A stretch of 42,343 nt of DNA from positions 1 through 42,343 of the forward strand of contig JADGJT010000191.1 of the NCBI GenBank assembly GCA_027604005.1, written 5' to 3'. Made by a program: the position numbers and the translations under genes. Below, piece after piece: positions 15,672 to 40,231 of this stretch; position 1 is the first letter of the stretch, and every line of letters begins with the position of its first letter. The notes below the pieces were generated by a model that worked only from the letters and a program-made list of their open reading frames with translations, made no database searches and was not told where the DNA came from. The DNA comes from Dinochytrium kinnereticum. Taxonomy: Eukaryota > Chytridiomycota > Chytridiomycetes > Chytridiales > Chytridiaceae.

Positions 15672-15742
15672 CTTGGAGTGGCCAAATGGTAAGGCTCTGG
15701 CCTTTGAAGCCAGGATTGTGGGTTCGAGTCCCTCCTCCTCAA
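15672..15742 (+). tRNA. trnQ: tRNA-Gln (UUG), acceptor pairs 1-3 mismatched
   Basis: Anticodon stem-loop CTGGC-CTTTGAA-GCCAG, anticodon TTG at 15704-15706. The D stem is GCC/GGC and the T loop TTCGAGT. Acceptor pairs 4-7 (GGAG/CTCC) are perfect, but pairs 1-3 read C-A, T-C and T-T. There is one further T-T mismatch in the T stem. The discriminator is A. Copying the 3' strand would give a 5' end of TGA, making a perfect stem. Confidence 0.85.
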
Positions 15743-15817
15743 AAACGAATGGAACCTAAGAGGCTAAACACAATAATTATGGGAAGCATTCCAATAACAT
15801 TTTAGTTTTGTTCTCCA

Positions 15818-16525
15818 ATGGAACAATACGTAGTACTTCCATTGTTGACTCTATCGATTACAGTAACTAACGTAATCTTTTATCTACTAATGGCTAGTTA
15901 GGTTTCTCTATTTATAGCAGCTCCAGGAATAGCTCATAAAGGAGAACTAGTAGCAACATGGTGGGGAATTTAGAATGAATCTTAGTATAGAACAATTCTA
16001 TCTATGGTAGAAAATTATATAGGAAAAAAATACACAGTATATTTCCCATTGATTTATACAATATTTCATTAGATACTATTTAGTAATTAGCTAGGTATGA
16101 TACCATATAGTTCTACACCTACAGTTGAAATTGTAATGACTTTGACAATGTCTTTTACTCTTTAGGGTGGTGTACTATAGATTGGATTTTTGACTCATAA
16201 AGCTTTGCTTGTAGCTGCTTTTATACCAGCAGGTACTCCATTGGGTTAGGTACCACTAATGATTGCACTAGAAATTTTGGCTTATTTTATTCGTATTCTT
16301 TCTCTTGGTCTTCGATAGGCTATTAATTAGATTACTGGTCATGTACTTACAAAAGTTATAATTAGCTTTATTTGGGTAGCTTATCTTAAAGGTACCTCTA
16401 TGTTTATTCTTGTAATGCCTATGCTATAGTAGACAATGTTTTAGGCTCTTGAATAGTTGATAGCATATTTGCAAGCATATATATTTACATTTATTGTATG
16501 TCTTACAATTAAAGATGTTTGTTAA
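15818..16525 (+). CDS. atp6: ATP synthase F0 subunit a
   Basis: Proton-channel subunit of complex V. 235 residues to TAA at 16523-16525. Family signals include LGMIPYSSTPTVE, GFLTHKALLVAAFIPAGTPLGLVPLMIALE, the RILSLGLRLAINLITGH stretch with the essential arginine, and a C-terminus LELLIAYLQAYIFTFIVCLT ending IKDVC. UAG codons occur at conserved leucines. It starts about 75 bases after trnQ. Confidence 0.96.
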
Positions 16526-17446
16526 CATTCTTCAATGTCACTTTTATAGTACTAAGTATCCTAACCTTATTCAAATTTGTCTAGTTGGACCAAAAAATAG
16601 GGAGTCTACATTAGGTGAATGCACTAAAAGATCACTATAACCAACCTACCCCCAAAGAGACAACCCATAGGGTGAAGGTAAATTATGAATATATGTATTT
16701 ACTCATACATCTACTAATCAACAATATGTTGGAGTCCTGCGGCTGCTGCAACCGTAGGACAACCCTACGGGACGCTGCGCACTACAACCAGAGGACAACG
16801 TGGGTGGTGGTCACTACCGCGATCCCCTACGGGAACAGCTGGAAGTGAGTCCTGCGGTTGTGTTCAGTCCCGTCCCTTCGGGTCGGGTTAGGTCGGTCGA
16901 TCAACGGACTCGCTGTTCGGTGAGTATGAAACCTTGCTGCGTCCCTACGGGTTGGTTTAAGTGCTTCATAATATATGAGGACGTACTGGCCCATGCATCC
17001 CGTCCCTCGGTAAGGTTGGGGGTTCGTCAGGTTGCATGACATGTTTTTTCGCTTGAGCTCGTCCCTTCGAGTTGGCAACCGGTAAGGTGGACACGATTTG
17101 GCGTGACAGAGCCATGGAGGACGTCCATCAGTCGGTTACGCTTGGAATCCTTCACCCTATGGGTTGTTGACGGTGTTAGAGATTATACCAATCCTTTTAG
17201 ATTGTTGAATTAGACCCAATTGAATTAATCGACGAACGAATTGTCGCGAGCTCATAACATAGCGTCCACGAGGCCGTAAACGATGAACTATTCTTTAAGG
17301 GTTCTTTAAGACATGATAACAAATCCAACCCCAAAGGAACGGATCACATCATCGTGTGTCATCCAACCCAAAGGGACGGATCACATCATCGTGTGTCATG
17401 ACTGTGTCATCTTGATGACGAATAGCTTAAAGGCTTATTAATATTT
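16526..17446. other. Spacer between atp6 and cob
   Basis: GC-rich palindromes (16740-17100), an imperfect tandem repeat at 17323-17397 and AT-rich flanks. I recognise no gene. Confidence 0.5.
17323..17397. repeat. Imperfect 37-38 bp tandem repeat
   Basis: Two copies starting ATCCAACCC and ending CATCATCGTGTGTC, differing by a base insertion and a substitution in the GC-rich part. Confidence 0.88.
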
Positions 17447-20400
17447 ATGAGAATTACTAAAAGAAATCCTCTACTAGCTTAGGTTAATGATTATCTAATT
17501 GATAGTCCAGCTGCTAGTAATTTGAGTTATTTTTGGAATTTTGGTTCTTAGCTAGGTCTAAATCTAGTTTAGATGATTATTACAGGGGTTGATCTAAGCC
17601 CCACATGGTATGAAAATGAATTTAACGCTACGCTTGATTTGAGTCCTTAGGGTTAGAATGTTTTTCTATGCAAAAATGTTGTTCCTCTTAAAGTTTATGA
17701 CAATTTGGCTGATAAAAATATTATACGTCAAATTAGGTAGGATAATGAAGATAAAGGTGGTATTTATGCAGTTGTTAATAATTTTAACGGCAAAATATAT
17801 ATTGGTCAAGCATCTTTGGGTAAAATCTATAGAAGGTTTAGAGCTCACAAACAATCAAAGATTGTGGTGGTAGCAAACTAGTAGGCAAAGCTATAGAAAA
17901 ATATGGTATTGAAGTATTTAGTTTTGTCATATTGGATTATGTTGATGCCAGCCCTATGGCTGATAATTCTTAGAAAGAATTTCTTGAGTTGCGGGAAACC
18001 CACTTTATTCGTTTGTTTCAACCTACAGGTTATAATGCTTCTAATAGTGGTTCTACAAGTTAGGGTTATAAGCACTCTGAGGAGACTAAAAAAAAACTAA
18101 GTGAATCTTGGACTGAAGAGCGCAAAAAAGCTGCTAGTGAAACAATAAGAGAGTATGTTACTACTCCTGAAGCTATTGAAAAAATGGTAAATAGTTAGAG
18201 AAATAAAACTCTTCCTGAAGATGTGCGTAAAAAAATGTCTGAGACTCGTAATCGTCCTGAATATAAATAGATGGTAAGTAAAAGACATAAAGGTAAAACA
18301 ATACCTGATTCTATTAGAACCAATCACAGTCTTAAATAGCTTGCTAAAAAAGGTTATGATATTTCTAATGCTTCCCCTGTTGATCCATTTTGTATTATTA
18401 GACTTGACGGTACTATACATTCTCGTTATGCCACTTAGATTGATATACAAAAAGTTTTCAAAGTGAATAGTTATCTAGTTCGCAAATGCTTTCATAAAAA
18501 ACTACTTTTTTTGGATATTGGTTATATAGAACTCAGATGATCTTTTACATTTTATTACCATAGTCATAAATTTCATATTTACGTTGGTTCTTGATTTATG
18601 GCGATATTAGTGTTAACGGTTAAGTTGCCTTCAGCAAGACCGTCGATAATGACAATGTTTGCTTTCCTAGTGCGAGTAAATACAATGAGTTTACAACTAA
18701 ATTGTGTTCTTATTCTTTATCGCTACAGACTGGTTCACTAATGGATGTTTTTTTTAGTATTGGTAAGAGATTTTCTTAGTACTAATAGGATATTTAATGT
18801 ACAGTCGAAGTCTAATGGACTTGTTTGTAGGCCATGCACTATAATAGTAATGTAGCTTAGGCATTTAATTCTGTCGAACATATTGTTCGAGACGTTAACA
18901 ATGGTTGGCTAATTAGATATATGCATGCAAATGGTGCTTCTTTTTTCTTTATTTTTGTATATCTACATATTGGTAGAGGTCTTTATTATGGTTCTTATCG
19001 TCATCCTAGAGCACTACTATGGATAATCGGTGCAGGAATTTTTGTTATAATGATGGCTACCGCATTTATTGGTTATGTCTTGCCTTGGGGCCAAATGTCT
19101 CTATGGGGTGAGTGCCCTAATGTATAGTTGCAAATATATATTATAGGAAAAACTAGAGTTCGATCTAATAAAAGAATTGGACCACATGATTTCGAAGTTA
19201 TTTCTTTTATTTTTGGTGCTGTTATATCTGATGCTCAAGCTGAACGTCATGGTAATGGTACAAGAATAGTTTAGCAACAGGAATCTAGTAATAGAGAATT
19301 TATTGAATGGTATAATAATTTTCTAGCTATTAGAGGTTATACTTCTCCAGATATGAAAATTTAGTCTAGAATAGGAACTAATTGTAAAAAAAGATTTTAT
19401 TCTAAATCTGCTACTTGGACTTATACTAGTTTTAATTGGATTTATGATAGTTTCTATAATGATTCTGTTAAAATTGTTCCTCTTAATTTTTATACTTATC
19501 TTTCTCCTATTGCTTTGGCTGTATGGATTATGGGAGATGGATCTAAAGTATCTGGAGGAGTAAAATAGTGTACAAATAGCTTTACTAAAGAGGATTGTGA
19601 AAGAATTTGCCTTACACTGCAGTGTAAGTATTCTCTTCAAGCCTCTGTTAATAGTGCTGGTGTTCCTAATCAATGGGTTGTTTATATCTGGAAAGAATCT
19701 ATGCCTACTCTTATTTCTATTGTTAAACCATATATGGTTCAATCTATGCTATATAAATAGCATCTATAATATGCAATTATATCGTTATAGAATAACAGGC
19801 ATTATGTATGTTTATTTTATAATTGACATAGTGAAAACGGTCAATAATAATATATAGGAAAGATTTTTTATCTTATCGGAACTTTAGTTCCTTTATCAAG
19901 ACCGTTGGGAGATTGTTTTTGCTGCAAGCGATAGCAGCTTGTGGAGCAACCTATCAAGATTTGCAACACTTCGTTATGGGCTTAACATCTTTCACTACAG
20001 ACTGGTTCACTATGGAAAATAGTTAAAGTATATCTACTAAGCTATTTTTTAATGTACAGTCGGAAGTTTAAGAAATAATGTATGGCAAGTCCATGACTTA
20101 TTTCTTTTAAGTACATCTTAACATGATCTACGATCGTTTTTAGGGAAGTTTTATTTTCCTGCAAGATAGTACAGGTAATCATCGAGATATATACTTGTTG
20201 GTTATTAAACTTTGGCAACCGTAATTACTAATCTATTTTCTGCTATACCATGGATTGGAAATGATCTTGTAGGATTCATTTGGGGAGGTTTCTCTGTAGA
20301 TAATGCTACTTAGAATAGATTCTTTAGTCTACATTATCTTCTACCATTTATTTTGGCTGCATAGGCTTGTATGCATTTGATCGCATTGCATGTAGATGGA

Positions 20401-20898
20401 TCTAATAATCCAGAAGGAATTTCTAGTACTACTGATAAACTAAGATTTCATCCTTATTTCACCAGTAAAGATTTGGTTGGATTTTTTTGGATGGCTATAC
20501 TATAGTCTATATTTGTATTCTTTTATCCAAATTATCTAGGTCATGCTGATAATTCTATTCCAGCTAATCCTTAGGTTACACCAAGACATATTGTACCTGA
20601 ATTTTATTTCCTACCATTTTATGCTATTCTACGTGCTATTCCTAATAAACTTTAGGGAGTTATAGCTATGTTTGCAGCTATTCTTATAATGATTCCATTG
20701 CCATTTTTTGCCACACTAAGTTAGCGTGGTCACAGATATAGACCAATTCTGAATATATTGTTCTGGATTTTTGTATTTAATTTCCTATTTTTGCTTTGGC
20801 TAGGTGCTAAACCAGCTACAGAACCTTTTGTAAGTTTGGCTCAAATATCTACTGTAATTTATTTTGGTTATTTTATAATGGTTATGATTCTAGGATGA
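17447..20898 (+). CDS. cob: Apocytochrome b, three exons
   Basis: Central subunit of complex III with the heme bL/bH sites and the quinol pockets. Exons are 17447-17589, 18824-19109 and 20215-20898, giving 370 residues and a UGA stop at 20896-20898. Visible motifs are NFGSLLGLNLVLMIITGV/LLAMHY across junction 1, [30 protein letters not shown] across junction 2, and [21 protein letters not shown]. The conserved heme-binding histidines are in place. No UUA or UCA was seen in the exons. It is one of three genes here ending in UGA. Confidence 0.96.
17590..18540 (+). pseudogene. GIY-YIG homing endonuclease with one frameshift
   Basis: The frame is continuous with cob exon 1. [20 protein letters not shown] carries the GIY and YIG motifs (about 17756-17815). 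A one-base change near 17851-17857 moves the remainder to another frame, which is open to UGA at 18538-18540. The second part holds NUMOD3-like repeats ([34 protein letters not shown]) and a C-terminal intron-encoded nuclease repeat-like segment ([20 protein letters not shown]). One base is missing relative to an intact gene; programmed frameshifting cannot be excluded. Confidence 0.75.
17590..18823 (+). other. Group I intron, cob intron 1
   Basis: Splits the ITGV/LLAMHY codons. Exon 1 ends in T at 17589 and the intron ends in G at 18823. R-like GCTACAGACTGGTTCAC near 18722 and S-like AATGTACAGTCGAAG near 18796 are clear. Confidence 0.85.
19110..19769 (+). CDS. LAGLIDADG type 2 homing endonuclease (exon-fused)
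   Basis: The frame is open from cob exon 2 through to TAA at 19767-19769, with several UAG codons read as Leu and no UUA or UCA. The first motif is [14 protein letters not shown] and the second [19 protein letters not shown], as in LAGLIDADG DNA endonucleases of organelle introns. There is no obvious internal start near the beginning, so it is probably made as an extension of the cob exons and then processed. It appears intact. Confidence 0.82.
19110..20214 (+). other. Group I intron, cob intron 2
   Basis: Lies between SLWG and ATVITN. The exon ends in T and the intron in G. R-like CACTACAGACTGGTTCAC near 19996 and S-like AATGTACAGTCGGAAG near 20050 match cob intron 1 and rnl intron 2. Confidence 0.85.
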
Positions 20899-20946
20899 AT
20901 TTTTCTTGGAAACCCCGTCGGTTGCCTTAATCAACGACTGAAGGCT

Positions 20947-21018
20947 CATGAATGTAGTTTAAAGGTAAAACACCAGCTTGTCGAGTTGGACGATGTGGGT
21001 TCGAATCCCATCATTCCC
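20947..21018 (+). tRNA. trnD: tRNA-Asp (GUC), acceptor pairs 1-2 mismatched
   Basis: Anticodon stem-loop CCAGC-TTGTCGA-GTTGG with GTC at 20979-20981, T loop TTCGAAT and discriminator A. Acceptor 3' strand CATTCCC pairs with GAATG, but the first two bases of the 5' strand are A and T opposite C and C. The expected 5' end would be GG. Confidence 0.9.
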
Positions 21019-21170
21019 AAAATCGTATTGTCACCGAATGGACTGCCCCGTCCGTCCATCCTTCGGTTGGTCGGACACTTGGAATGCTCCGAAGATCTGA
21101 CGTCCTCCTGTTGAGGCACCCCCTGGGCCTTCGGTTCGTCGCGAGCTCGGCGACCCTACGGGAACCATGG

Positions 21171-21242
21171 TGCGGTGTAGCTCAATGGTAGAGCAGCTGG
21201 CTTTTAACCAGTTGGTTGTAGGTTCAATTCCTATCATCTGCA
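21171..21242 (+). tRNA. trnK: tRNA-Lys (UUU), acceptor pairs 1-3 mismatched
   Basis: Textbook D arm (GCTC AATGGTA GAGC), anticodon stem-loop GCTGG-CTTTTAA-CCAGT with TTT at 21203-21205, and T loop TTCAATT. Acceptor pairs 4-7 (GGTG with CATC) hold with one G-T, but pairs 1-3 read T-C, G-G and C-T. The discriminator is A. Confidence 0.9.
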
Positions 21243-21663
21243 AGCTTGGGTGGCTGCTACGATTGTCCTTCGTAAAAGCCCGTAGGACCTTGATCACTCC
21301 TATTGTCACAAATGGTAACCTTTGGAATCATGACTCGTCGCGGCCGCATCTTGGAATGCACCTCGGCGAAGTCCCACGTTTACGTTGGGTTGCATGGACA
21401 TCGCATGGCCGTTCTTACGGCCCATACATTATTCTGAAGGATTTAAAGATGTACCTATGATTTATTGCTGAACATGTAGACGTCATCACTCATCCCGTAA
21501 GATCGCAGAGCATCCCGAAGAGTCCTCGTAGACCTGCGACAGCTGTGATTAAAGTATGGCTCTATAAGTCAATGCTACACGTGTTAGAATGCCATGCAAA
21601 GCATGGGGATGCATGAGTCTACCGAAGGACTTCGGAACTAATTAATGAAAATTATTTATTTTT
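21243..21663. other. Spacer between trnK and atp9
   Basis: GC-rich repeat fragments including a CTTGGAATGC motif also found near 13240, 21081 and 40730. I see no gene. Confidence 0.5.
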
Positions 21664-21888
21664 ATGTTGATGGCCGCTAAACTAATCGGAGCCGGATAGG
21701 CTACTATTGCTCTTGCTGGAGCTGCTACAGGAGTTGGACTAATTTTTGCTGCATTGATTACTGGAACTAGTCGTAATCCATCTTTGCGTAAAGAACTATT
21801 CAACACCGCTATTTTGGGGTTTGCTCTTACTGAAGCCTTGGGTCTATTTGCTCTAATGATGGCTCTAATTTTCCTATATGCTTTCTAA
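21664..21888 (+). CDS. atp9: ATP synthase F0 subunit c
   Basis: Proteolipid of the rotor ring of complex V. 74 residues from the first ATG, or 72 from ATG at 21670 (MAAKLIGAG). Two membrane hairpin segments: [21 protein letters not shown] and [21 protein letters not shown] (shown in the sequence as a pair of about 20-residue helices). The loop is [15 protein letters not shown]. The proton-carrying glutamate stands in ALTEALG. One UAG is read as Leu (GAGLATI). Confidence 0.96.
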
Positions 21889-23124
21889 CCATTTGGTCTT
21901 GATCGCAAGCATGGTCATTACGTGGCTCCACTCGGCGAAGCCATGGCTTGCCATGTATTCCAAGTTCAAACATCGCGAGGCCTTTAAGGCTTTTGGTGCT
22001 GATGCCGTCCGTAGGTCGGTCCCGCTGTCCATTCGTCCGTCCCATCCCTTGGGATTGGGTTGGTTGGTCTGTCGTTGATTATAATGTGTAATTTGGAACT
22101 AATTCAATTTTGAAAGCCTGAAGGCACGTCCTTTAATCCGTTATAACGAAAAAGAGATGATCGCTCTGAGTCACTCTAAACGTAGCAACATGTCTTTGTT
22201 AAAGGCTATCACGCGTCCTATGTGAGCAGTCAGTCCTACCGACTTACGGACGGACAGTCTGTCACGAGGTCGCATTCTAAGAAGTAAGGAGTACAGTAGC
22301 CGCAGGACTTAACCCTACTTGCGAGGCTTCGCAACTTGGAAGGTTTGTAAGCGTCCCAATCCGTAGGGACGGGTATGACAGTATCGTGCTATTCCTTCGG
22401 GTCTTGTAAGTACGCTTAGCGTTGTGGGACAAGTTGTATCTGTTTCGTCACGTGGCTCGGTGAGTGAGTTACGTACACTTGACCCCTGTCCGCTGAGGAG
22501 GACCTCGAAGAGCCGAAGGCTCATGCGAACCGACCGATAAACTTAACGGACGGACTGGCCTGCGGATGCGATCGTTGAAGTAAGTTGTGGTTACGTTCCT
22601 TAGGGTTTAGATGATTGATTGAAAAAATACTCAGTCTGGAGGTTTCTGAAATGCGGAAAGCTCTGACGAACTAGAAGACCATAGGATGATGGTTTAATAG
22701 CCACGCAATGAACGACCACGCTGCCTCAGGTCTGGCCTCCCAGCGCTATATGTTGGTGGGGATTGTGTGCTTCATCAGTCGAATGGTGCGTTCCTACCCC
22801 CGTAGGGACGGGTTGGTTTAACTGAAGTATGTGAAATACCAGCAAATGTCACGAACGCGAGGACCTCAAAGAGTTGAAGCCACCCGAAGGGGGGGCACGT
22901 TGTACAGCCTCGTCCATAGGTCAGGGTCACAGCGAACTAGAAGGAACAGGATTTACTGACGCTGCACAAATTAGTGCTGCTATTAGTCCGTCCGTACCCC
23001 CCAAGGGGGGGTTGGTCGGTTGGTAGGGCCACGATTGTTGCAATCAGTCCGTCCATTCTTCGGTTGGTACTCGAAGGGACGTCGGTGACGATTGCTAGTA
23101 AATAAATACAAAGAGCTACGCATT
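21889..23124. other. Long spacer between atp9 and nad5
   Basis: 1.2 kb dominated by GC-rich palindromes (CCCTTCGGG, CCCGTAGGG and similar). Contains one AATTCAATTTTGA motif at 22101-22113. No gene or tRNA recognised. Confidence 0.5.
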
Positions 23125-25119
23125 ATGTATTAGACTATTTTGATGCTTCCACTATAGAGTGGATAGCTAGCAGTAAATAGAAAATGTGGTCAAATAGGTG
23201 GACCAATATAGAGTGTAATATGTATAACTTAGACAGCAATACTAAGTACAATAGCATTTTATGAAGTAGGTTAGGGAGGATCTCCAGTATCTGTAAAATA
23301 GGGATATTGGATAGAATCGGTATATTAGAATGTAGAATGGACTTAGATTTATGATTCTTAGACAGTATCTATGTAGATACCTGTATTGTATGTAAGTACA
23401 GTAGTACAAATATATTCTATGTCTTATATGTCTGGTGATCCACATATGCCAAGATTTTTTTCTTATCTATCTCTATTTTCTTTTTTTATGCTAATATTGA
23501 TAACTGGAGAAAATCTACTAGTATTGTTTCTAGGATGGGAAGGAGTTGGTTTGGCATCCTATCTTTAGATAAACTTCTGGTTTACTCGTATTGCTGCAAA
23601 TATGGCTGCATAGAAAGCATTTCTTCTAAATAGAGTAGGAGATCTAGGTTAGGCTTAGGGAGTACTATAGACAATAGGATAGATAGGAGATCTAAGTATG
23701 GCAAGTATATTTTCTATGGCATCTCAATTGAATGCAGATTGGATTTAGCTTTAGACAATACTACTAATTATAGGTGCAATAGCTAAATCTGCTCAAATTG
23801 GTCTACATGCATGGCTAGCATCTGCGATGGAAGGTCCAACTCCAGTCTCTGCCCTTATCCATGCGGCCACAATGGTTACAGCAGGAGTATACCTATTTAT
23901 GCGTTTTAGTCCATAGCTAGAATTCTGTACAACTGGATAGATGATTATTACTTGGCTTGGAGGTCTATCTGCTTAGTTTGGAGCTAGTTGTGGTCTATAG
24001 GAAAATGATTAGAAAAGAATAATTGCTTATTCTACTACTAGTCAATTGGGTTATATGGTTGTTGCTGTTGGTCTTTCTCAATATAGTATTGCTTTGTTCC
24101 ATCTATAGAATCATGCCTTCTTTAAAGCTCTTCTTTTCCTATCTGCTGGTGCTGTAATACATGCAGTAAATGATCAACAAGATATTAGACGTATGGGTGG
24201 ATAGGTTTAGTTGTAGCCTAAAACCTATAGTTTTATATAGCTAGGTAGTCTATCTTAGATGGCATTTCCATTTCTAACTGGATTTTATTCTAAAGATTAT
24301 CTTCTTGAATTGGCTTTGGTTCCTAGAAATCTAACTAGTACTATTGCTTATCTATTGACTTTTTTTGCAGCTATTTAGACTGCTACTTATTCTACACGAC
24401 TAATGATTTAGACTTTTATTTCTAAACCTCATTTCCCTAAAACAACTACACTTATTGCTCAAGATCCTCCTATTCTTATGTTTATTCCACTATTTATTCT
24501 TTCTCTAGGAGCTGCTTTTTTTGGTTATCTAACTAATGAACTATTTATTGGTTTGGGTTCTACTTTCTATCAAAATTCTCTATTCACTCACCCTAATCAT
24601 TTGGCTCTTTAGGATGGAACAATGTCTCCAGGAACAATATAGAAATATCTTCCAATTACAACTTTGTTTATTTTGATTACTTTGATTCCTCAATTCAATC
24701 GTAATCCAAAAGGACATAATTCGGCAACGGTAGTTGGTCCATAGACTTCTAATTTGGCACAACCAGTTGCAGATGAACATACATATCGTGTACCTATGGC
24801 ATCTAGTCAAATACTTAATTATTTCGATGTATATAATCATTGGTTCATTGCTAATGCACTATCTTTTGGTCGTTATATTGATAGTGATTTGGATCGTGGT
24901 CTTATTGAACTAATTGGACCAACTGGTTAGATTCGTTTGTTCCATTATCTTTCTCATTCTTTGGAATTGTAGGCTACAGGATATCTACCTCATTATGGAT
25001 TTATTGTTGTCACAGTTGTTTTCTTTAGTTTGTAGTCTCTTATTAGTAATCTATCTATTTTCATAGCTTTGTGGCTATTGTTTATAATTGGAGTAGCAAC
25101 AGCCACAGCTGGACGCTAA
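23125..25119 (+). CDS. nad5: NADH dehydrogenase subunit 5
   Basis: Largest membrane subunit of complex I, 664 residues to TAA. Motifs include [85 protein letters not shown] and [18 protein letters not shown]. About 38 in-frame UAG codons are read as Leu. Not one UUA or UCA appears in 665 codons; UCG occurs as sense (AAT TCG GCA near 24721). The start ATG gives the usual MYLTILMLPLLSGL opening. Confidence 0.97.
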
Positions 25120-25924
25120 AACGTGTTGCTCGCTACACGCTCAAACTTGCAGCCCGTCCCTTCGGGTTAGGTCTGTCGGTTGGTTAGTCGTTGATGATGA
25201 ATGTGTTAAGACATGATTCGCCATTACGCTCATCCGTTCCGTCCCGTTCGTCCGTCCCTTCGGGTCGGTCTGATTGGGTAGGTATGTCCCATTCAATTTT
25301 GATCCTGAGGACTCATGATCTATTGTGCCCTATATGAACGTAAGGACTTAGCATTAGGCCCCCCTTCGGTCGTTGATTGCATCCTGTAGGGACCATGCCT
25401 CAACGTCCCGTCCCTACGGGTTGGGGTGGCCAAGTAAGACACAAGGCACTACGTCCATACCCATGCATGGCATTCGGTGAGTGGGCTACGCCGTCCATCC
25501 CTGCGATCCCTCACGTTGGCTCCGCCATCCATCCCTGCGACCCCCTTGATGATCGCAAGTGGACTTAGGTCTCAATGTTTAGTATTCACTGTAATAACGT
25601 AAAAGAATACAAAGAGAATGCTACGCATTGATCTGAATCTCTTTAGGATTCGTATTTAAAGCACGTGGCATTCAGTGATACGGTCACGAACGATTGTTCG
25701 TCGCGTGGCTCCGAGGGTCCTGCGGTTCAGAGTGTCACGAGCAGCATAGCGATCCCGTTGGGCCGCGTCAGCGGAAGCGAAGCTGACGCGACGCTATGTG
25801 TTCATACGGGTTGCATAGTGGGTTAATAAGGTTTGATGAATTATTGTACTTAGACAAACAAAAGCTTAAATTCTAAGGCTAAGATCAAAGATCTGGTTTC
25901 TTGGTAAGCGATAAATGTAACTTA
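25120..25924. other. Spacer between nad5 and rns
   Basis: GC-rich palindromes, an ATTCAATTTTGA motif at 25291-25302, and a strong hairpin element at about 25748-25800 in which GCGTCAGC pairs with GCTGACGC. No gene seen. Confidence 0.5.
25748..25800. repeat. Mobile-like GC hairpin element
   Basis: Contains GCGATCCCGTTGGGCCGCG followed by an 8-bp perfect stem (GCGTCAGC/GCTGACGC). A related copy interrupts the endonuclease pseudogene near 8409-8470, and a shorter one lies near 35030-35055. Confidence 0.75.
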
Positions 25925-27260: not shown

Positions 27261-28230
27261 AGCTTCATAAACCACTACCCCCCCCCCCTCCCCAACTGTC
27301 ACACCTTTGTTTCTTTCAGTTAGTCCCACTCTACTGTATTAACAATAATATACAATTAGTCCCACTCTACTGTATTAACAATAATATACATGATGTCCGT
27401 CCCCTCAGGTGAGTTAGTTGATTCAATCAGTAGGACTTATATTCAACAGTAACGCATCCCGCAGGGTGGTGCAAGCCCCGCAGATCCGCAGGTCTTCAAG
27501 ACCACAAGCATTCCATAAATCGCAGCTTACAAATGGTCACCAAGTGACCAATAACAATCCGTAGGGTGATACGGTACGACGGATAAGTATTCCAAGGACA
27601 ACATAGCCCATGCATCCAGTAAGGCAGCATTAGGAGGACGTGGCTATAAAGTATTCCAAGCACCCTAGGGGTTTGGTACACGGACGCGCATCCGCAGGCC
27701 CCCCCGCGTCCCTACGGGACGCTTAGCTTATACAAGGGTAGTATGGAGAGACCCGTAGGGAGACGAAGCCATACCATGCAACTTAGCGTGAGTACCACAG
27801 TAATCCTACGGTGATCGCTGTGGGGTGGTTTGTTATCATTGCTTTCTTCACGTTCCCATCCGAGTAGGTCAGCTCCCCCTTGGGTTGGTCTGTCAGGTTG
27901 GTGATGACGATGCAAAATGTTTAGGACCATCAGGATCCTAATTGAATCACGTACAACTTGGGCACTGCGACCTTACGGACCCTGTGGGATGTTGTCTAAG
28001 GTTTTACGACTGCGACTGCTACTGCGACAGCGACTGCGACAGCTCAGAGCATAACTGCGACAACTCTACGGGACGACTGCGACTGTAACTGCGACTGCTA
28101 CGACTCTACGGGACAACTGGGATTGTTAAGTATTATGTAAATACTGTAATAACGTAAATCAATTAAGGAAAGTTCCGGATGTTCCGGATGGATTGATGTC
28201 AATACTGTAATAACATAAATCCATTAAGGT
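27261..28230. other. Spacer between rns and trnW
   Basis: A C run near 27281, a 36-bp tandem repeat (27320-27390), GC palindromes, ACTGCG-rich low-complexity sequence at 28008-28115, and two near-copies of an AT-rich stretch (from about 28140 and 28201) just before trnW. No gene recognised. Confidence 0.5.
27320..27390. repeat. 36-bp tandem duplication after rns
   Basis: Two copies of a unit beginning TTAGTCCCACTCTACTG, period 36, at 27320-27355 and 27356-27390. Confidence 0.93.
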
Positions 28231-28301
28231 TAGGATGTAGTTCAATGGTAGAATACTGGTCTCCAAAACCAGCAATGATGGTTCGATTCCGTCCATCCCC
28301 A
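28231..28301 (+). tRNA. trnW: tRNA-Trp (CCA), acceptor pairs 1-2 mismatched
   Basis: Anticodon stem-loop CTGGT-CTCCAAA-ACCAG with CCA at 28263-28265, T loop TTCGATT and discriminator A. Acceptor pairs 3-7 (GGATG/CATCC) match; pairs 1-2 are T-C and A-C. The CCA anticodon agrees with UGG as the tryptophan codon and UGA as stop. Much of the sequence is shared with trnP at 40161-40231. Confidence 0.92.
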
Positions 28302-28570: not shown

Positions 28571-28672
28571 ACAAGTGGTTTAGAGGAAACGCTACGCGTC
28601 TTCTAAGTACAAGTGGTTTAGAGGAAACGCTACGCGTCTTCTAAGTCTAGGGCGAACAAGTGGTTTAGAGGA
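28571..28672. repeat. 38-bp tandem repeat
   Basis: Two full copies of a unit starting ACAAGTGGTTTAGAGGA (28571 and 28609) and a partial third at 28656. Each full unit contains the palindrome-like ACGCTACGCGT. Confidence 0.92.
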
Positions 28673-29346
28673 CCTTATGATCAGTTAGGGTTTGCTAAGG
28701 CTCGTAACTATGTTGTTAGAAACGGAGTCGTGACTGTATTGTTAGAAACGGAGTCACTTGTAAACCTCTGAGGCACCGCGTCGCGGGGGGGGGACGGGAC
28801 GACGCCCTACGTGACTTGTGGCAGGACGGATTTAGGAGATATGAAAGGGGAAGAATACAATTCCCTATAAGAAAGCCCATTCATCAGTTGTGAGGATTCC
28901 TATCTAGGTGACGATGGTCGTGATCTAGGGGGGGTGTTCAGCTGAAGAAAAGAAATGCAAGGACACAATGCGATTATGGGTAACCCACAAGGGGGGGGTG
29001 ACTCATTAGAGGGTAAAAGATGCAACTGATCAACCGAAGGGCGGAAGGATGTACACAGTAGGTCGTGACCTGATGTGTTCGTCTGGCCCAACTCGTCCCT
29101 TTGGATTAGGGTTGGGGGTGGTCACAATTTGTATCAAGTATACCAGTCGCCGAGCTTACGGACTCTGCAGGGTTTGGTCATGGTCGTCCCGTAGGGTCGC
29201 AGTGCTCACTAGACCACCTGGGTCACAGAGGCACTGTATTACGTGACTAACTAACCGCAGGACGTAAATAGCTAAGTGGATGTTCATATAAATGCATCAT
29301 GTTGGTATACAACCGAAGGGCGGGTGCGCAAAACTTTAAGGGTAAT

Positions 29347-30093
29347 ATGACTAACTAGGGATGGTTTAACGCAATGTCTTAGCATTGTGATTCGCCGTAG
29401 GCTTACGGTGTAGGTTTTCAAGATCCAGCATCTAATTGGATGTATGCAATAATAGATTAGCATGATCGTATAATATTCTTTATACTAATTATATTTGCAG
29501 TTGTAGGATGGTTTCTAGTAAGTAGTCTAACAAATACAGATCATTTGTCTAATCTTCGTCATGGTGATTAGCTAGAATAGGTTTGGACTCTTACACCAGC
29601 AGGTATATAGTGGGCTATTGGTTAGCCAAGTCTTCGTCTGTTGTATATGATGGATGAAATTTAGGATGCTGAAATTACAGTAAAAGCTATTGGTAATCAA
29701 TGGTATTGGAGTTATGAATATACTGATTATGTAGGTGATGATGCTGCTAATTCTGCTATTGCTTATGACAGTTTTATGTTGGATGATGCTACATAGGAAT
29801 TGGGAGATCAAAGACTATAGTCTGTAGATAATTATTAGGTTCTTCCTGTTCATACAAGTATTCGTTAGTAGATAACTTCTAATGATGTTATTCATTCTTT
29901 TGCTATACCTTCTTTGGCTTAGAAATGTGATGCTATACCAGGTCGTTAGAATAGTATAGGTGTAATAATAAATAGACCAAGTACTTATTATGGACAATGT
30001 TCTGAACTTTGTGGTATTCTTCATGGTTTTATGCCTATTGGTCTACGTGCAGTAACAATTCCATCTTATATAAATTGGTAGGAATCTCAATTA
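29347..30093 (+). CDS. cox2: Cytochrome c oxidase subunit 2, unsplit, ending at UUA
   Basis: Carries the CuA centre that accepts electrons from cytochrome c. 248 residues: two N-terminal membrane helices ([19 protein letters not shown] and [15 protein letters not shown]), then [10 protein letters not shown], the [11 protein letters not shown] histidine, and the ligand cluster [16 protein letters not shown]. The family C-terminus (YINWLESQ) meets UUA at 30091-30093. The next conventional stop would add about 37 residues without family resemblance. No other UUA or any UCA lies in the frame. In Scenedesmus this gene is split, with the C-terminal half nuclear; here both halves form one gene. Confidence 0.95.
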
Positions 30094-30760
30094 TTCACAC
30101 TGCGTGTTACCACCGTATACTCTCCAATTCGCTAGACCACCTTAATGCTATGCATGAACGTCATGGTAATCATGATCACCATAGGTGTACGCACTGTTTT
30201 GAAGTGAGAAAGTTTGATTCAATTTTGACAACATCCCCCACTGTGCCAAGCGGATGCAACGACGGACGAGCTAGGCAAGGACACAATGCAACACGACCCG
30301 AAGGGACGCGCTTGACAGCTGGACGTGCATTGGGTCCATCCTTCGGTCGGTTCCGAGTGTCACGACTGAGTCCTTCAAACTACGATGGGCAAGCCATGTT
30401 CGTAGGCCTTCTACGATCATACCCCAAGGGTACGGAGCACTCCAAGAACTTGAAGGGGGGGGGGTGGGTGTAAAAAGCGGCCCGTAGGCCAGCGACAATC
30501 CACACTTAGCGTTAGGCTAAGGAATGGATGTGACGAGGCGCGGTGTGAGGACTCTATGGATGGTAGGTCATGACCTGCTGTGTCCTAGTGCGTAGCCTCG
30601 TCGCGTGGTCCAGTGCCTCACGTCCGCATCCCGAAGGGTGGTGGTAAAAGAGCCACTCTATGGGGGTTGTAGGTTCATAACGAACGTAGTTCTACGCAGA
30701 CAATGGTTAAACCATGAATGTCAATAGGAATCTAAGAAAAAATTGGAATGCTTTGTTTTT
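30094..30760. other. Spacer between cox2 and nad1
   Basis: Holds GATTCAATTTTGA at 30216-30228, GC-rich palindromes and a G run near 30455. Incidental frames overlap here; no gene recognised. Confidence 0.5.
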
Positions 30761-33700: not shown

Positions 33701-34021
33701 AGGTATCTATTATATTAAATCTAATTTAGGGAATCTGAATAGGTGGCTGGTTTTATGACAGAATATTCTGCAATTCCTTTTGTTTGTTTTTTTTAGGCTG
33801 AATATACTAATATTTTGGTTATTTCTACACTTTTCTTTATACTATTTTTTGGTATTTCTATGGCTCTACCTATGATTTTTATTATGATTTGGATTAGAGC
33901 AACACTACCAAGATAGCGTTTTGATCAATTGCTTCGTTAGGGTTGGTCTTATATTTAGCCTTTTACAATTGCTTATATTCTTTTTCTACCTCCATTCCTA
34001 TATACTTTTGACCTTGCTTAA
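30761..34021 (+). CDS. nad1: NADH dehydrogenase subunit 1, three exons
   Basis: Quinone-proximal membrane subunit of complex I. Exons are 30761-30899, 32081-32553 and 33731-34021, giving 300 residues to TAA. Signals include [33 protein letters not shown] after junction 1, [33 protein letters not shown] restored across junction 2, and LRFDQLLRLGWSYILPFTIA. Junction 2 is exact; at junction 1 the restored residue is Phe where Leu is usual, so that boundary may be off by a base. No UUA or UCA seen in the exons. Confidence 0.95.
30900..32080 (+). other. Group I intron, nad1 intron 1
   Basis: Sits in the conserved GFLQP(L)ADG sequence. Core-like ACTATATGCTGGGAAGT near 30974 and AATCAGCAGGGAAG near 31018 are present; I could not identify R and S elements with confidence near the 3' end (candidate near 32020-32065). 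Boundaries come from exon phase and the T/G rule. Confidence 0.7.
31120..31985 (+). pseudogene. Decayed GIY-YIG endonuclease in nad1 intron 1
   Basis: Pieces in several frames match a GIY-YIG enzyme: DVLIGSAT (second motif), [14 protein letters not shown] and [19 protein letters not shown] (catalytic-domain C-terminus with its glutamate), then NUMOD3-like [20 protein letters not shown], and [19 protein letters not shown]. At least three frameshifts separate them. Not functional as it stands. Confidence 0.65.
33015..33720 (+). pseudogene. Decayed GIY-YIG endonuclease in nad1 intron 2
   Basis: [22 protein letters not shown] carries GIY and a degenerate YIG (YIS); RAIEKYGI and [10 protein letters not shown] follow, then NUMOD3-like segments ([29 protein letters not shown]). 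TAA interrupts the frame at 33181-33183 and again near 33676. GC-rich stretches are inserted without breaking frame at about 33197, 33360 and 33503, and the 36-bp hairpin repeat lies at 33555. It contains UCA codons, but as a pseudogene these say nothing about the code. Confidence 0.72.
33555..33590. repeat. Dispersed 36-bp hairpin repeat, copy 1
   Basis: Identical to 36376-36411. The core TAGAG-GAAG-CTCTA folds as a hairpin. This copy lies inside the nad1 intron 2 endonuclease remnant. Confidence 0.93.
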
Positions 34022-34298
34022 ACGTCAATCAATACCCTCGAGTCTAATGACAACAACGTCATTAACGTCCCTTAGGGTTGAATTCTCTAATGCGTTCAGT
34101 AGAGACGCATGCCCTATGAGCGATTGTTACTTAGGGTTCAAGTCACGTCCCGTCCGTCCCGTCCCTTCGGGTTGGGTTGGTTCGAGCAGCCCTCCGGTCC
34201 AGACCACGTCAGCGTGTGGTTTATACGGGTAGCGTTGCTCCGAGCCTTGCGTCCGTCCTCCCCCCCTTGGGGGTAGGGTGACGAGCCTAAGATGATTT

Positions 34299-34478
34299 AT
34301 GGAACCTAAGCAAATTAGTATTTCGATTATGCCACAATTTAACCCTATATGGTGGATAAATACTTAGTCTTGGATGTTTGTAATAATTACTTTTGGACTT
34401 TGGTTCCATCAAACTATTAGTTTTCCTTCCATACTACGCATGAAACTATCTAGAGCTGTAATGTTGTTTTACTTCTGA
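34299..34478 (+). CDS. atp8: Probable ATP synthase F0 subunit 8
   Basis: 59 residues ending in UGA, or 49 if started at the ATG at 34329, which gives the family's typical MPQ opening (MPQFNPIWWINTL). One hydrophobic helix follows (WMFVIITFGLWF), then a basic tail with FPSILRMKLSR, resembling the PRILRIxKLR end of algal and plant ATP8. One UAG is read as Leu, so a standard-code search would miss the gene. Subunit 8 anchors the F0 stator. I know of no mitochondrial atp8 in Scenedesmus or Chlamydomonas. The short length limits certainty. Confidence 0.65.
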
Positions 34479-35748
34479 GTCCTGCAACCCCATGCCTTGC
34501 ATGGGACTCCTTTCAAGTTTTAGGTGACAGTCCAAAGTTAGGCACCGTATTCTTAACTTTACACCCCCACGTAAGGCCTACGTACATGGCAAGCCATGCT
34601 CTGATCCCTACGGGTCTCCTGCAACCCTACGGGACTAGTCTCCCTAAGAGGTACGCGACAACGAGCGTCATCCGCACCAATTGGTAATGTTACTCAATCA
34701 TCATGACCCTTCGAGCTCGTATGGTCACCAACCTAAACCCTCTAAACCGCAGGACTACCATGGAGGCTCCCGTGACAAACTATGGGACTTCCCGTCCCTT
34801 CGGTCGTGACGAACCCGACCGAACACACGTAGCGTTACGGACTGAACGCGCATCCTATAGGGTTGCGCACTGATTCAATTTTGAACCATAAGCCTTCATA
34901 CCCCCCTCTAAGAGATACGCCATCAGTATAGACCCAAAGGCTACCTGCTGATCGCATGTGACGCTTAGGTATCTTGGAATTGTTACCATACGCATGCAAG
35001 CCACGCGTATCGTCCAGTTCAGTGGTTTAGCGATCCCGTTGGTCCGCTGACGCTAAATAAAGGCCTTCGGGTCGAGATGTTTGTGCTGAGTCCGCAGGTC
35101 GCAGCCTCATCATGTACTCCCCACGTAGCCCCCTCCCCTTCGTCACATAGCTCTACTCATCGCGTCCACCATACATCCCTACGAGTAACATGGCTTGTAA
35201 CTCATACAACCGAGAATGGAACGTATGCTGAATGTATCCGGAACTAACAGAAAGATGGACCACATTCGTCGCACTGGCGTTCACCATGCAACCAACCCCC
35301 CCTCCAAGGGTACGGACGGACGAATGGCGGACGTGAATGCAACCCTACAGGACGTTCAATCGTAAGGCATACCGTATGATTACCCTCTCTATACTGCGCC
35401 ATACGTCACGTTGACGTGGTAAAACCCTACGGAACGGCTGTGACCGTATGTCCCTTCGAGTCATGTTAAAGAGACCCTACGGCTATACTTATGAAACGAG
35501 CTAGAATGTTCGTAACAGAAGGAAGATCGACGAAGGTCTTTGAGTCTCTACGACCACACTTATGAAACAAGATCGTAACACCAAAGGATACGCATGTTCC
35601 GTCCATCGGTCATACCTTCAGATCGCATGGAGGGGGAGGTTGGCTATGTCTGCCCCCTACGTAGCACCGTGTCATCAGCACTTGCATCAATGGTCCCGTT
35701 CGGTCATACAAGGTTGCACACAATGCGGTCATGTGGTACCATGAGATG
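34479..35748. other. Long spacer between atp8 and trnY
   Basis: 1.3 kb of GC-rich palindromic repeats with one GATTCAATTTTGA motif at 34872-34884. No gene recognised. Confidence 0.5.
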
Positions 35749-35827
35749 AGGGGTGTAGCCTAATGGTTTGGCAGCAGACTGTAAATCTGTGCGATTCGCA
35801 ATGTTGGTTCGAGTCCAACCACCCTCA
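35749..35827 (+). tRNA. trnY: tRNA-Tyr (GUA), acceptor pair 1 mismatched
   Basis: Class II tRNA with variable arm hairpin (GCGA-T-TCGC). Anticodon stem-loop GCAGA-CTGTAAA-TCTGT with GTA at 35781-35783; T arm GTTGG-TTCGAGT-CCAAC is perfect; discriminator A. Acceptor pairs 3-7 match, pair 2 is G-T and pair 1 is A-C. Confidence 0.92.
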
Positions 35828-35830
35828 AAA

Positions 35831-35859
35831 CCCGCAAGAACCCGCAAGAACCCGCAAGT
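35831..35859. repeat. 10-bp unit tandem repeat after trnY
   Basis: Three copies of CCCGCAAGAA, the last incomplete. Confidence 0.93.
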
Positions 35860-36531
35860 ACGCCCATCGTCACCATGCAACCCGTAGGGGGTTCAAGGCC
35901 TTACGGCTACACTCGTGGACAACTGTCCGCAGGTCAGCGGTATTGCGACCATGATGGAGGCTGCGCACCTCATACTTGTCAGAGGTTCCAATTGATTGAC
36001 ATAGGCCTTACAAGCTCCAATTGATTGACATGCACCATGGATGAACATTGTCGTGCGTATGTAGGCATAGGCATACACCATGGATTAACATAGGCTTATG
36101 CCTGCTCATGTAAGTAGGCCTTATGCGGTATGCAGTTTTACAGTGACCCTACCCAAAGGGCCCTGACCACTGTGGGATGGATAGTTAGAGGTGAGATCGT
36201 AGCCGCAGGGCTATGTGTTGTGTCGTAATCTGAGGGTAACGAACTACCATATGACTCAGAGCGTTCCCCCCGCTACGTGCCTTATATTTACAAGGTCCTA
36301 CGATATGGAGGATATGCGGTAGCCATTGCCTAAGATTATGCGGTAGCCGTGGGGGGGGGGTGATCAGTCTGCATCATAGAGTGACTCGTAGAGGAAGCTC
36401 TACTCGTATAAAGGATTTATGAAAGGTTACAAATTGTCCTTGTCTTGCTATGGTAAAGAACCCAAACCGACCGACCCAAGGGGGGACGGATGTCACCCAA
36501 AATGCGTCGCGCTATGCGTCTTTGATTTATG
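35860..36531. other. Spacer between trnY and nad6
   Basis: Contains near-repeats of CCAATTGATTGACAT and ACACCATGGAT (35988-36090), a G run near 36351 and the second copy of the 36-bp hairpin repeat. No gene recognised. Confidence 0.5.
36376..36411. repeat. Dispersed 36-bp hairpin repeat, copy 2
   Basis: Same sequence and orientation as 33555-33590, here in a spacer. The flanks differ, so the element itself seems to have moved. Confidence 0.93.
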
Positions 36532-37143
36532 ATGTCTTAGATTTGTTATGTTTATATAGCACTATGTGCTGTAGGACTATTTTCTGGTCTAATTGTAGTT
36601 AGTGCAGTGTATGCAATACACCGAGTAGCTCTATAGATAGTAGTATATTAGACAGGATCTTTTATATTTACACTATTGGATTATTATTTTCTAGGTTAGA
36701 CTTATATTATTGTATATGTAGGAGCTATTGCAATATAGTTTTTGTTTGTAATTATGATGGTTGATCTAGGTCAAACACCTATAGGGGATCAAGTTACAAA
36801 AGGGGTAGATAAAAGTAATTTGCAATGGTGGATTTAGTTGTCGTAGATTTAGTTTATCCTTTAGGTCATTAGTCCTTAGTTCCGTAGTACTTTTATTGAA
36901 GGTTCTTCGGAGCACGTTGGAGAAAGTTAGTTTAGTATTACAGGTATTTAGGAACCACATTCGTTGGTAACTTATTTTTATCCTTCTTGGGCATGTGATT
37001 TTAAAGGTCCTACTGATATTCAAAATTTGGCTTATGTTGTTTATATTGCTTATCCTCTTGCTTTGTATTTGATAGGAGTTATTTTGTGGGCAGTTATGAT
37101 TGGTATCATTGCTATTGCGATGACTACGAGCTCAGTCACTTAA
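36532..37143 (+). CDS. nad6: NADH dehydrogenase subunit 6
   Basis: Membrane subunit of complex I. Opens MSLICYVYIALCAVGLFSGL and contains VVYLTGSFIFTLLDYYFLGL and the diagnostic YIIVYVGAIAILFLFVIMMVDL. 203 residues if read to TAA. A UCA at 37132-37134, four codons from the end of the frame, is the only UCA I found in the core genes; if UCA terminates, as in Scenedesmus, the product has 200 residues. The hydrophilic middle (GDQVTKGVDKS onward) is longer than in short-form NAD6. No UUA. Confidence 0.95.
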
Positions 37144-38240
37144 ACAACCGACTGAAGCCTCCGCAGGAGTGGCACAGACGGATTGACAGCGTACGCGGGG
37201 GTCAACTAAGAAGCGACCGGATGTCTGAAAGGCCTACGATCGTGACCGTGTTACAGCAGGACCCATGAGGTCCCCTTCGGTTCTAGCCCCTTGCAATGCA
37301 TGATGAAATGGATAGGAGCTTTTAGCGATCAATTTACCTCTATTCACTGAGTTGACGTTCTAAGGTACGTGATTGGATGATGACCAATCTAAAGAACTTG
37401 TGTGGTCGACCGAACCTAGGACTCCTTCCAAGCCCATAAGGTCATATCTTACCGCACCATGTCCTCTGTCACAACCGCAAGGCTCATCGTATCCTTGGGG
37501 TTAGGCCATAGCCTTTAGATAACGCGTCTTAGTCAACCTCCACGCGTGCTGTGTCATAGCAAACCAACCCACTTGGTCTGTCACGCGTTCCTACCTACGG
37601 ACTGGTTAGCGTGGAAGGCCTACGTACATGGCTTACCATGCTCATGAAGTTGTGACCATCGCTTAGCCTAAATGCATCTTAACCTTATCTATATTGAAGG
37701 TTCGCTAAACAACGTAGTATTATACCCCCTTAATGGATTTTTAGAGGTATGCAACGCCTCGCCTGTTGCACATACGCCCTTTTGTGAAGTGCTTCATGCG
37801 GCCCTGTAGCCGAGCAGACGAACGATCGTTGATGGACCTGGTACTCCGCATGCCACACCCTGTAGGGTGGGATGTACGCAGCGTGTAGCAGCATAGCCAT
37901 GCGACTCGTTGAGAGGGCCCCGTCCCTTCGGGTTGGGCTATGCAACGTCCCGTAGGGTCTTGTAGGTAGAGTATATCTGCGACGGAAAGATTCGTCCCCC
38001 CTTGGGTTGCCTCGCCTGTTCCGGTCAAGTAGCAACCCGTAGGGTCACGTATGAACATGCGAGCAGCGTATCCCAACCAAAGGACGAGGGATCGTACGAC
38101 AGATTAAGGTAAAGATGCGAAGCGCTCGAAGGATTGGATGTTTAAGTGACGAACGAATACATTGATGTTGTATAGCCTTCGGTCGTATTTTCATACATTA
38201 TCCTAAGAGGACGGATAGTTTCCGTTTATTTGTAAATTTT
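37144..38240. other. Spacer between nad6 and nad4L
   Basis: 1.1 kb of GC-rich palindromes with AT-rich ends. Minus-strand frames near 37730-38076 overlap each other and have no domain. No gene recognised. Confidence 0.5.
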
Positions 38241-38537
38241 ATGAATGGATTTGGTATAAATATAGCAATAGCTTAGAATTGTGTAGCTGTATTGGCTTTT
38301 CTTTTTAATGGTGGTATACGTACTTCTGGTCTTATAATGATTGTAATATCTTTGGAATAGATTCTATTGGCTGTAGGTATTCTATAGGTAAATCTATCTT
38401 TTCATTTGGATGATAATATTGGAACCAGTTTGACTTTGTATATTTTGCCTCTTGCTGGTGCTGAATCTGCTATAGCTTTGGCATAGTAGATAGCTTATGA
38501 ACCTCTACGAGGCGGTATTGCATTTCGTTCTCGTTAA
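38241..38537 (+). CDS. nad4L: NADH dehydrogenase subunit 4L
   Basis: Small three-helix membrane subunit of complex I, 98 residues to TAA. NGGIRTSGLIMIVISLELILLAVGILLVNLSF matches the family's central SLEL...N region in two consecutive helices, and AGAESAIALALLIAYE matches the conserved AAAESAIGLAILV segment. Several UAG codons are read as Leu. It stands alone between long spacers rather than beside nad5. Confidence 0.95.
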
Positions 38538-39182
38538 GACTCATGACGATCTTGTTCGTCCTTTAGTCGGTTGGTCATAAATAGCCCCCCCATACATATC
38601 GGTCTGTACATATCGTCCTGCGATTTGGTATGTTCTGGCTGTGCATTGAGATGGTTGTCACGATCCGCAGGGGCGTCCCGTCGGGTTGTCACGATCCGTC
38701 CCGTTCCTTCGGGTCGGGTAGGGTCACCGTTTTTAATCGTATGCTCATTCCCCCCCTTCAAGTCTACGACCCCTATGGGCTACAGGTGTCAATCGCAGCC
38801 GTAGGATGCCGTGATGATCGTTAAGTTATAAGCACATCACGCTGTTTTACCGTAGGACCACATCGCCGTGCCTGGCCCTTCTAGTTGGGTAGGTTCGTGC
38901 TCACCACGGGACGAGGCTGCGCACTACAAAAGCCTTATCTGTCAGTATGCACAGCGATCCCGTAGGGGGTTGGTCGGTCAATCGTCGCATCTCCGATACA
39001 CGTAACGATCATATCCCTTTGGGGTTTGTGACCATATGATTATCGCCATGCAACTCAAGGACGCATGGCTGTGATTCACGAGCTTTCGCGTTCCTACGGG
39101 ATGCAACCCAAGGACGTATGGCTGTGATCCACGAGTTTCGCTCGTTGTTAAAACGGTAAATTGGTGAGTAAACTTTGTTTAA
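38538..39182. other. Spacer between nad4L and nad3
   Basis: GC-rich palindromes plus a near-duplicate phrase (GGACGCATGGCTGTGATT and GGACGTATGGCTGTGATC, 39059 and 39111). No gene recognised. Confidence 0.5.
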
Positions 39183-39563
39183 ATGATGGCATTTCTAATC
39201 ATTAGTCTAATTATTTAGGTTATAGTTAGTGCACTTTTTTTGGCTAACTACTTTATAATTTCTAGTGGTAATAATAAAATAGACCCTTGGTCTATGGGAG
39301 CAGATTTGTCTGCTTATGAATGTGGACTTGAACCAATAGGTGATGCAAGAATGAAATTTGATATACTTTATTATGTAATTGCTATATTGTATTAGATTTT
39401 CGATCTTGAAATCATTTTTCTATTTCCTTAGGCTACTATAATGTTTAGTATGAAATCTCTTATAGGATTTTGGATTGTAACAACTTTTTTGATAATTCTA
39501 ACTATAGGTTTCATTTATGAATGGAATATGGGAGCATAGGAAATTGTTCCAAGTGATTCGTGA
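39183..39563 (+). CDS. nad3: NADH dehydrogenase subunit 3
   Basis: Membrane subunit of complex I, 126 residues, UGA stop at 39561-39563 preceded by UCG. Family signals: LSAYECGLEPIGDARMKFD with the conserved loop cysteine, ILYYVIAILYLIFDLEIIFLFP and GFIYEWNMGALE. UCG is sense in cox1 and nad5, so the last residue is probably Ser. Confidence 0.96.
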
Positions 39564-39574
39564 GCATTTTAGCT

Positions 39575-39632
39575 CAGTGCGTTCGTCACCGAGGTCACGA
39601 GCATTCCAATCCAGTGCGTTCGTCACCGAGGT
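39575..39632. repeat. Direct repeat, period 37
   Basis: Two 21-bp identical segments with the core CAGTGCGTTCGTCACCGAGG at 39575 and 39612. Confidence 0.9.
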
Positions 39633-39988
39633 TTCAGGTCACGATCACTGTACCGTAGTGCGACGGGACCATGATTCATGACATATCCTGCGGTTTTTTC
39701 ACAGCAGGCGTATCCCATAGAGGCCCCACCCGAAGGTTGGGCTGGGAACGCACTGTCCGACTGAAGGACTGGCTTGCCTCAACATACAACAGCAGTCTAC
39801 GGCTAGTTATGTCGTATGAGCCCTTCAGTTTAGATTCAAATTAGATCTGTTAGTCCTACCTACCTATGGACGGACGGTCTGCAGCGAGTTACTCAGCATA
39901 GGAGAGACATACCTACCTACGGACAGACGAGTCCACTCATCGCGTTCATTTGGTAAGCCTTCTAAGAATACAACAGAAGGGATGTGTG

Positions 39989-40065
39989 GTGTGAATGCTA
40001 AGTGAGTGCCCCCTCCCGTAGAGGGGGTGTGAATGCTAAGTGAGTGCCCCCCTCCCGTAGAGGGC
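39989..40065. repeat. 38-bp tandem repeat with CCCTC/GAGGG hairpin
   Basis: Two copies with the shared core GAATGCTAAGTGAGTGCCCC (39993 and 40031); each ends in a CCCTCCCGTAGAGGG hairpin. Copies differ slightly in C-run length. Confidence 0.92.
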
Positions 40066-40160
40066 CTCTTACGTGATCGTCCCACCCTAAAGGTGGTCAC
40101 AGAAGGTTGGTATGTCCGTCCTTTCGGGCCGTAGCTCTGTAGGTTCGTTTTAGGTTACGA

Positions 40161-40231
40161 CTGGATGTAATTTAATGGTAAAATACTGGTTTTGGGTTCC
40201 AGTTTTGATGGTTCGATTCCATCCATCCCTA
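40161..40231 (+). tRNA. trnP: tRNA-Pro (UGG), acceptor pairs 1-2 mismatched
   Basis: Anticodon loop TTTGGGT with TGG at 40193-40195 and T loop TTCGATT. Acceptor pairs 3-7 (GGATG/CATCC) match; pairs 1-2 are C-T and T-C. The last anticodon-stem pair is T-T. By eye about 54 of 71 positions equal those of trnW, including the T arm, the D loop and the 5' anticodon stem, which suggests descent from trnW. Confidence 0.88.

Follow-up and report, generated by a model that had tools for sequence, protein, structure and literature searches.

Six tRNA genes with mismatches at the end of the acceptor stem

The stretch of DNA analysed here (the window, 42,343 nucleotides) is mitochondrial DNA of a chytrid fungus, contig C191 of an assembly of 22.4 Mb in 558 contigs, and most likely comes from Dinochytrium kinnereticum, of the order Chytridiales. 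It carries eight tRNA genes, and we are concerned with the acceptor stems of six of these, which look like substrates for repair of the tRNA 5' end. ARAGORN identified trnM, trnL(CUA), trnQ, trnD, trnK, trnW, trnY and trnP, labelling trnL(CUA) as Pyl, and Rfam recovered the same eight, with trnQ matched from model position 4 to 67 only.

Acceptor pairs were scored on 7-bp stems positioned by the T arm; all eight genes lie on the forward strand. The three outermost pairs are all mismatched in trnQ(UUG) (15672..15742; genomic 5' end CTT) and trnK(UUU) (21171..21242; TGC), the first two in trnD(GUC) (20948..21019; ATG), trnW(CCA) (28231..28301; TAG) and trnP(UGG) (40161..40231; CTG), and the first in trnY(GUA) (35749..35827; AGG), where pair 2 is a G-U. 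The acceptor stems of trnM(CAU) (11963..12033) and trnL(CUA) (13666..13747) are paired at 7/7 positions and would need no editing. Summed over the six affected tRNAs, 13 of the 18 pairs at positions 1–3 are mismatched (Q 3, D 2, K 3, W 2, Y 1, P 2) and none of the 24 pairs at positions 4–7 (Fisher p = 3.4e-7); over all eight the counts are 13/24 and 0/32 (p = 1.3e-6), both tests taking the pairs as independent. This recount, including the counts for each tRNA, agrees with the initial annotation, which had singled out the six genes as candidates for 5' editing. If random 5' bases faced the actual 3' bases, 12.6 mismatches per 18 pairs would be expected, and the 13 seen therefore give no sign of selection for pairing at positions 1–3.

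The remainder of these molecules is well preserved. A single mismatch occurs among 30 anticodon stem pairs of the six tRNAs, in trnP, and another among 30 T stem pairs, in trnQ, which gives 2/60 for a tally made of these two stems with the D stems left out. Such intact stems argue against the six genes being pseudogenes or nuclear copies, or the product of an assembly artefact, and we regard this explanation as practically negligible. The contig also has an open nad5 and rRNA matches that span the whole models, and the trnQ region, the only tRNA region for which a search was made, is single-copy in the assembly, with no nuclear copy.

Transfer RNAs encoded elsewhere in the assembly provided a wider control. 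At least 43 tRNA matches were obtained (63 of 794 candidates were scored), of which 8 lie in the window and 35 elsewhere; after one partial match had been dropped, the remaining 34 represented 21 distinct sequences, and these have mismatches at 0/63 of pairs 1–3 and 0/84 of pairs 4–7. The initial annotation had relied instead on trnL(CUA) and trnM as internal controls. Both are indeed fully paired, but they are weak in this role, because the probability that all three positions pair by chance is 0.08 for trnM and 0.13 for trnL. A search for related chytrid mitochondrial DNA in which the pattern might be compared gave 97 pattern matches in viral contigs, none of them confirmed; of 473 loci confirmed in genome contigs, the 80 best were all bacterial by record title, with identities of at most 52%.

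Alternative registers of the 5' ends

We consider it highly probable that the pattern reflects 3'-templated 5' tRNA editing of the type known from chytrids, in which the first nucleotides are replaced by copies templated on the 3' strand. The acceptor stems could, however, be read without any editing, if the tRNAs functioned with mismatched or bulged ends or if their 5' ends lay elsewhere than scored; displaced 5' ends had been named at the outset as an outcome that would refute editing. We therefore considered 5' ends shifted by between −8 and +2 bases. No shift in this range pairs nucleotides 70–72 of trnD, trnW or trnP, and in trnQ the sole pairing shift is +2, at the cost of two bases.

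The other two tRNAs behave differently, and here the observations weigh against our reading. ARAGORN places trnK in a different register, its 5' end pairs with nucleotides 70–72, allowing G-U, when shifted by one base in either direction, and RNAfold pairs the genomic molecule by bulging out one base of the 3' strand. In trnY, shifts of −6, −1, +1 and +2 all pair nucleotides 70–72, again allowing G-U. Because of these alternative registers we treat trnK as a weaker case and trnY as the weakest, and displaced 5' ends account for neither D, W nor P while still accommodating K and Y. Without trnK and trnY, 9 of 12 pairs at positions 1–3 are mismatched, and trnQ, trnD, trnW and trnP are the robust cases.

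Some animals tolerate odd mitochondrial tRNAs, and together with the registers available to trnK and trnY this lends some substance to the idea of unedited function. Against it stand the absence of re-pairing in D, W and P, the sharp boundary between pair 3 and pair 4 and the fact that the genome encodes an enzyme of a class suited to such repair, described below; on balance we judge that idea very unlikely.

The 3' strand appears to be the conserved strand

Mismatches by themselves do not reveal which strand is changed, and 3' editing is known in mitochondria and chloroplasts (PMC4284800). The 3' strand might accordingly be edited, or trimmed and re-added, to suit the 5' strand. We therefore compared the genomic 5' ends with those obtained by copying the 3' strand, the templated ends, which are TGA for Q, GGG for D, GCA for K, GGG for W, GAG for Y and AGG for P. 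The trnD result confirms the earlier statement that such copying restores GGG to the Asp tRNA. None of the six genomic ends starts with G, as against 18 of the 21 distinct tRNAs of other contigs (p 0.0003), whereas four of the six templated ends do (p 0.30 in the same comparison, which spans different compartments and amino acids). With G absent from the genomic starts and frequent in the templated ones, conservation seems to lie with the 3' strand, as 5' editing requires. With the host lineage and the enzyme described below both favouring 5' repair as well, we think a change of the 3' strand extremely unlikely.

Templating the six 5' ends lowers the fold energy computed by RNAfold in every case, by 1.3 to 7.5 kcal/mol. 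The predicted structures themselves speak less clearly for editing: the cloverleaf is absent for genomic Q, Y and P, templating does not produce it in Q or Y, and the templated fold of trnP has no D stem. Since RNAfold gives several of these tRNAs without a cloverleaf, we take the energies as a rough guide only.

Host and genetic code

The organism was placed with nad5 (23125..25116, forward strand, translated with code 16) and with a nuclear protein. The nearest relative of the nad5 product is that of Spizellomyces punctatus, at 71% and 72% identity in two comparisons, with Synchytrium second among the named matches. In a tree with long branches the window sequence groups weakly (81) with Spizellomyces and Synchytrium, apart from Chytriomyces confervae, a result that backs placement among the chytrids but does not by itself indicate Chytridiales. 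The order is assigned instead from a species match and from a protein tree presented below: a protein encoded on another contig of the assembly, C64, is 100% identical over 97% query coverage to HDU67_008700 of Dinochytrium kinnereticum, which is classified in Chytridiomycota, Chytridiales, Chytridiaceae. Spizellomyces punctatus itself is ruled out as host, its nad5 being merely 71–72% identical.

In the alignment with S. punctatus, 35 of the 38 UAG codons of the window nad5 stand opposite leucine, and we infer that trnL(CUA) reads UAG as this amino acid. Genetic code table 16 occurs, to the knowledge of the authors of PMC6821328, in none of the mitochondrial genomes of green algae, whereas S. 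punctatus apparently uses it, and it was adopted for the chytrids assembled in PMC6131824. A green alga, the setting entertained in the initial annotation, is ruled out by this literature, by the affinity of nad5 and by the identity of the C64 protein. An environmental nad5 (P0085) has glutamine at 11 of the 38 positions at which the window gene has UAG, which suggests that its UAG codons mean leucine and were rendered as glutamine by the source translation.

A Thg1-like protein is encoded in the same genome

Enzymes of the Thg1-like protein (TLP) family are the likely agents of 5' tRNA editing (PMC4284800), and the initial annotation had proposed looking for one targeted to mitochondria. The assembly holds two loci with a Thg1 domain. 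The locus on contig C126, which is split by apparent introns, also has the Thg1C domain, and a 104-residue piece of its product best matches eukaryotic-type Thg1 structures (3otb 4.5e-34; 4kgk only 1.7e-4); by these sequence matches we identify it as the canonical Thg1. The C64 protein matches PF04446 (2.1e-28), and the domain search gave no Thg1C match in it. Searched alone, it retrieves two Thg1-like structures from the Protein Data Bank at E ≤ 0.001, with 4kgk at the top (4.8e-16), and a profile of 27 proteins that includes it matches 4kgk at 3.9e-33 as against 1.9e-10 for 3otb. We take 3otb to be the human structure and 4kgk to be a Bacillus protein. Residues D31, D75 and E76, presumably the catalytic acids, are invariant across the 27 aligned proteins, the C64 protein included. 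Judged from these comparisons, the C64 locus encodes a TLP that is distinct from the Thg1 of the genome and nearer to TLPs than to eukaryotic Thg1.

The C64 gene has one predicted intron of 63 bases (L002 1440-1502), and the resulting junction is identical in the public protein. Upstream and in frame lies an extension with seven basic and two acidic residues in its first 70, which could be a mitochondrial presequence. Two observations count against this: the public model begins with MTPTPPP, without the extension, and the helix moment of the extension (0.41) is undistinctive beside values of 0.38–0.50 in relatives. The search for a mitochondrion-targeted TLP has thus produced the protein itself, with a presequence that is at most a candidate.

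A public model of the protein (P0204) is fused with the adjoining cystathionine beta-synthase-like gene, and P0205, a model of 832 residues, has a further domain; both are probably annotation mergers.

That the same genome encodes a TLP distinct from Thg1 strengthens the case for editing. The attribution made at the outset, to 3'-templated repair by a Thg1-like polymerase, remains the best explanation, its green algal setting apart. We believe that the precursors of four tRNAs (Q, D, W and P), with K and Y as probable further members, would carry non-pairing bases at positions 1–3, that these mismatched nucleotides would be removed, and that a nuclear-encoded Thg1-like 3'-5' polymerase would rebuild nucleotides 1–3 on the template of nucleotides 72–70 of the 3' strand. 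The resulting 5' ends would be UGA for Q, GGG for D and W and AGG for P, and, in the weaker cases, GCA for K and GAG for Y. In this scheme the C64 TLP would be imported into mitochondria and would be the editing enzyme, which gives the mitochondrial substrate pattern a specific candidate enzyme from the same assembly.

Distribution and phylogeny of the chytrid TLP

A search with the TLP gave 83 matches, and the organisms named in brackets in these records are chytrids or Gonapodya, as sorted by genus, with the exception of the rotifer Rotaria sordida. A profile search extended this range, its best 120 of 704 matches also including Pleosporales ascomycetes and Polysphondylium violaceum; an initial idea that no other fungi possess this family was given up in view of the Pleosporales among the profile matches listed. 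In a tree of 41 rows picked by hand from the matches, the chytrid and Gonapodya proteins, 29 in number, come together in a single group (support 85/95), with the four Pleosporales rows outside it, and the C64 protein clusters with those of Phlyctochytrium and Chytridium lagenaria (100/100). The P. violaceum protein also falls outside the chytrid group, on a long branch. The tree fits vertical inheritance of the TLP across Chytridiomyceta but is no proof of it.

The long-branched protein of the bdelloid Rotaria sordida takes the position of sister to the chytrid group (98/93) and in another tree joins metagenome proteins; horizontal transfer is a possible origin for it.

A TLP is not in itself proof of editing. 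Batrachochytrium species carry the chytrid TLP too, and Rhizophydium brooksianum, a member of the same order, is not known to have editable mitochondrial tRNAs; these two points together detract from the link between enzyme and editing. It may be that editing has gone unnoticed there, or that the TLP serves a further function.

Opinion among us is evenly poised on whether 5' editing and a dedicated TLP are ancestral in Chytridiomyceta, the Chytridiales and the line of Gonapodya and Monoblepharella included, with the TLP kept by vertical descent rather than the systems having separate origins. The window would bring to three the number of major lineages that show the substrate pattern. The presence of the TLP in many chytrid genera makes the origin of fungal 5' editing testable, by setting the presence of the protein against tRNA mismatches in the mitochondrial genomes of chytrids.

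Comparison with known 5' editing systems

Spizellomyces punctatus is reported to have mismatches in all eight of its mitochondrial tRNAs, and the 5' editing in its mitochondria is credited to Laforest (1997), a work cited in PMC4991717 and PMC6821328. The window resembles this system in coming from a chytrid, in having eight mitochondrial tRNAs, in UAG meaning leucine and in mismatches that lie within the first three acceptor pairs. It differs in belonging to the order Chytridiales and in the full pairing of trnM and trnL. The same positions are affected, by literature account rather than by sequence comparison, in the monoblepharids Harpochytrium and Monoblepharella, which belong to another class. 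They are also the positions affected in Acanthamoeba and Dictyostelium, where a Thg1-like 3'-5' polymerase (DdiTLP3 in the latter) serves as repair enzyme, although these organisms are Amoebozoa.

The published record bears out the earlier claim that the pattern is familiar from Acanthamoeba and chytrid mitochondria. Editing restricted to the first three pairs is documented for Acanthamoeba, for other Amoebozoa such as Dictyostelium, and for Spizellomyces, Harpochytrium and Monoblepharella (PMC4284800). S. punctatus is named in PMC4991717 as a species whose mitochondrial tRNAs undergo 5' editing, and DdiTLP3 repairs 5'-mismatched tRNAs in Dictyostelium (PMC6471195). Small tRNA sets are also usual: S. 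punctatus has eight mitochondrial tRNAs (PMC4394434) and uses UAG for leucine (PMC6821328), Synchytrium endobioticum has five with table 16 (PMC6131824), and several chytrids have between five and nine (PMC7194472). We found no report of 5' editing in Chytridiales, as judged by titles and the openings of abstracts and with subscription literature mostly outside the scope of the search. By this prediction, an RNA repair system already familiar from other chytrids would reach a further order of the group.

Repeats in the window

Short GC-rich, hairpin-like repeats of overlapping families are dispersed in the window, among other places at 16864-16895, 25148-25179, 34153-34184 and 38695-38726. They share the core CCGTCCCTTCGGGT, with eight copies in family D1 and ten in D2, and we take them to resemble the double-hairpin elements known from chytrid mitochondrial genomes. 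Three further repeats adjoin tRNA genes. Next to trnL a 54-bp unit is present twice in tandem (13747-13854), next to trnW two 34-nt copies lie 61 bases apart (28135-28229), the second stopping just before the gene, and next to trnY a 10-bp unit is repeated 3.9 times in tandem (35821-35858).

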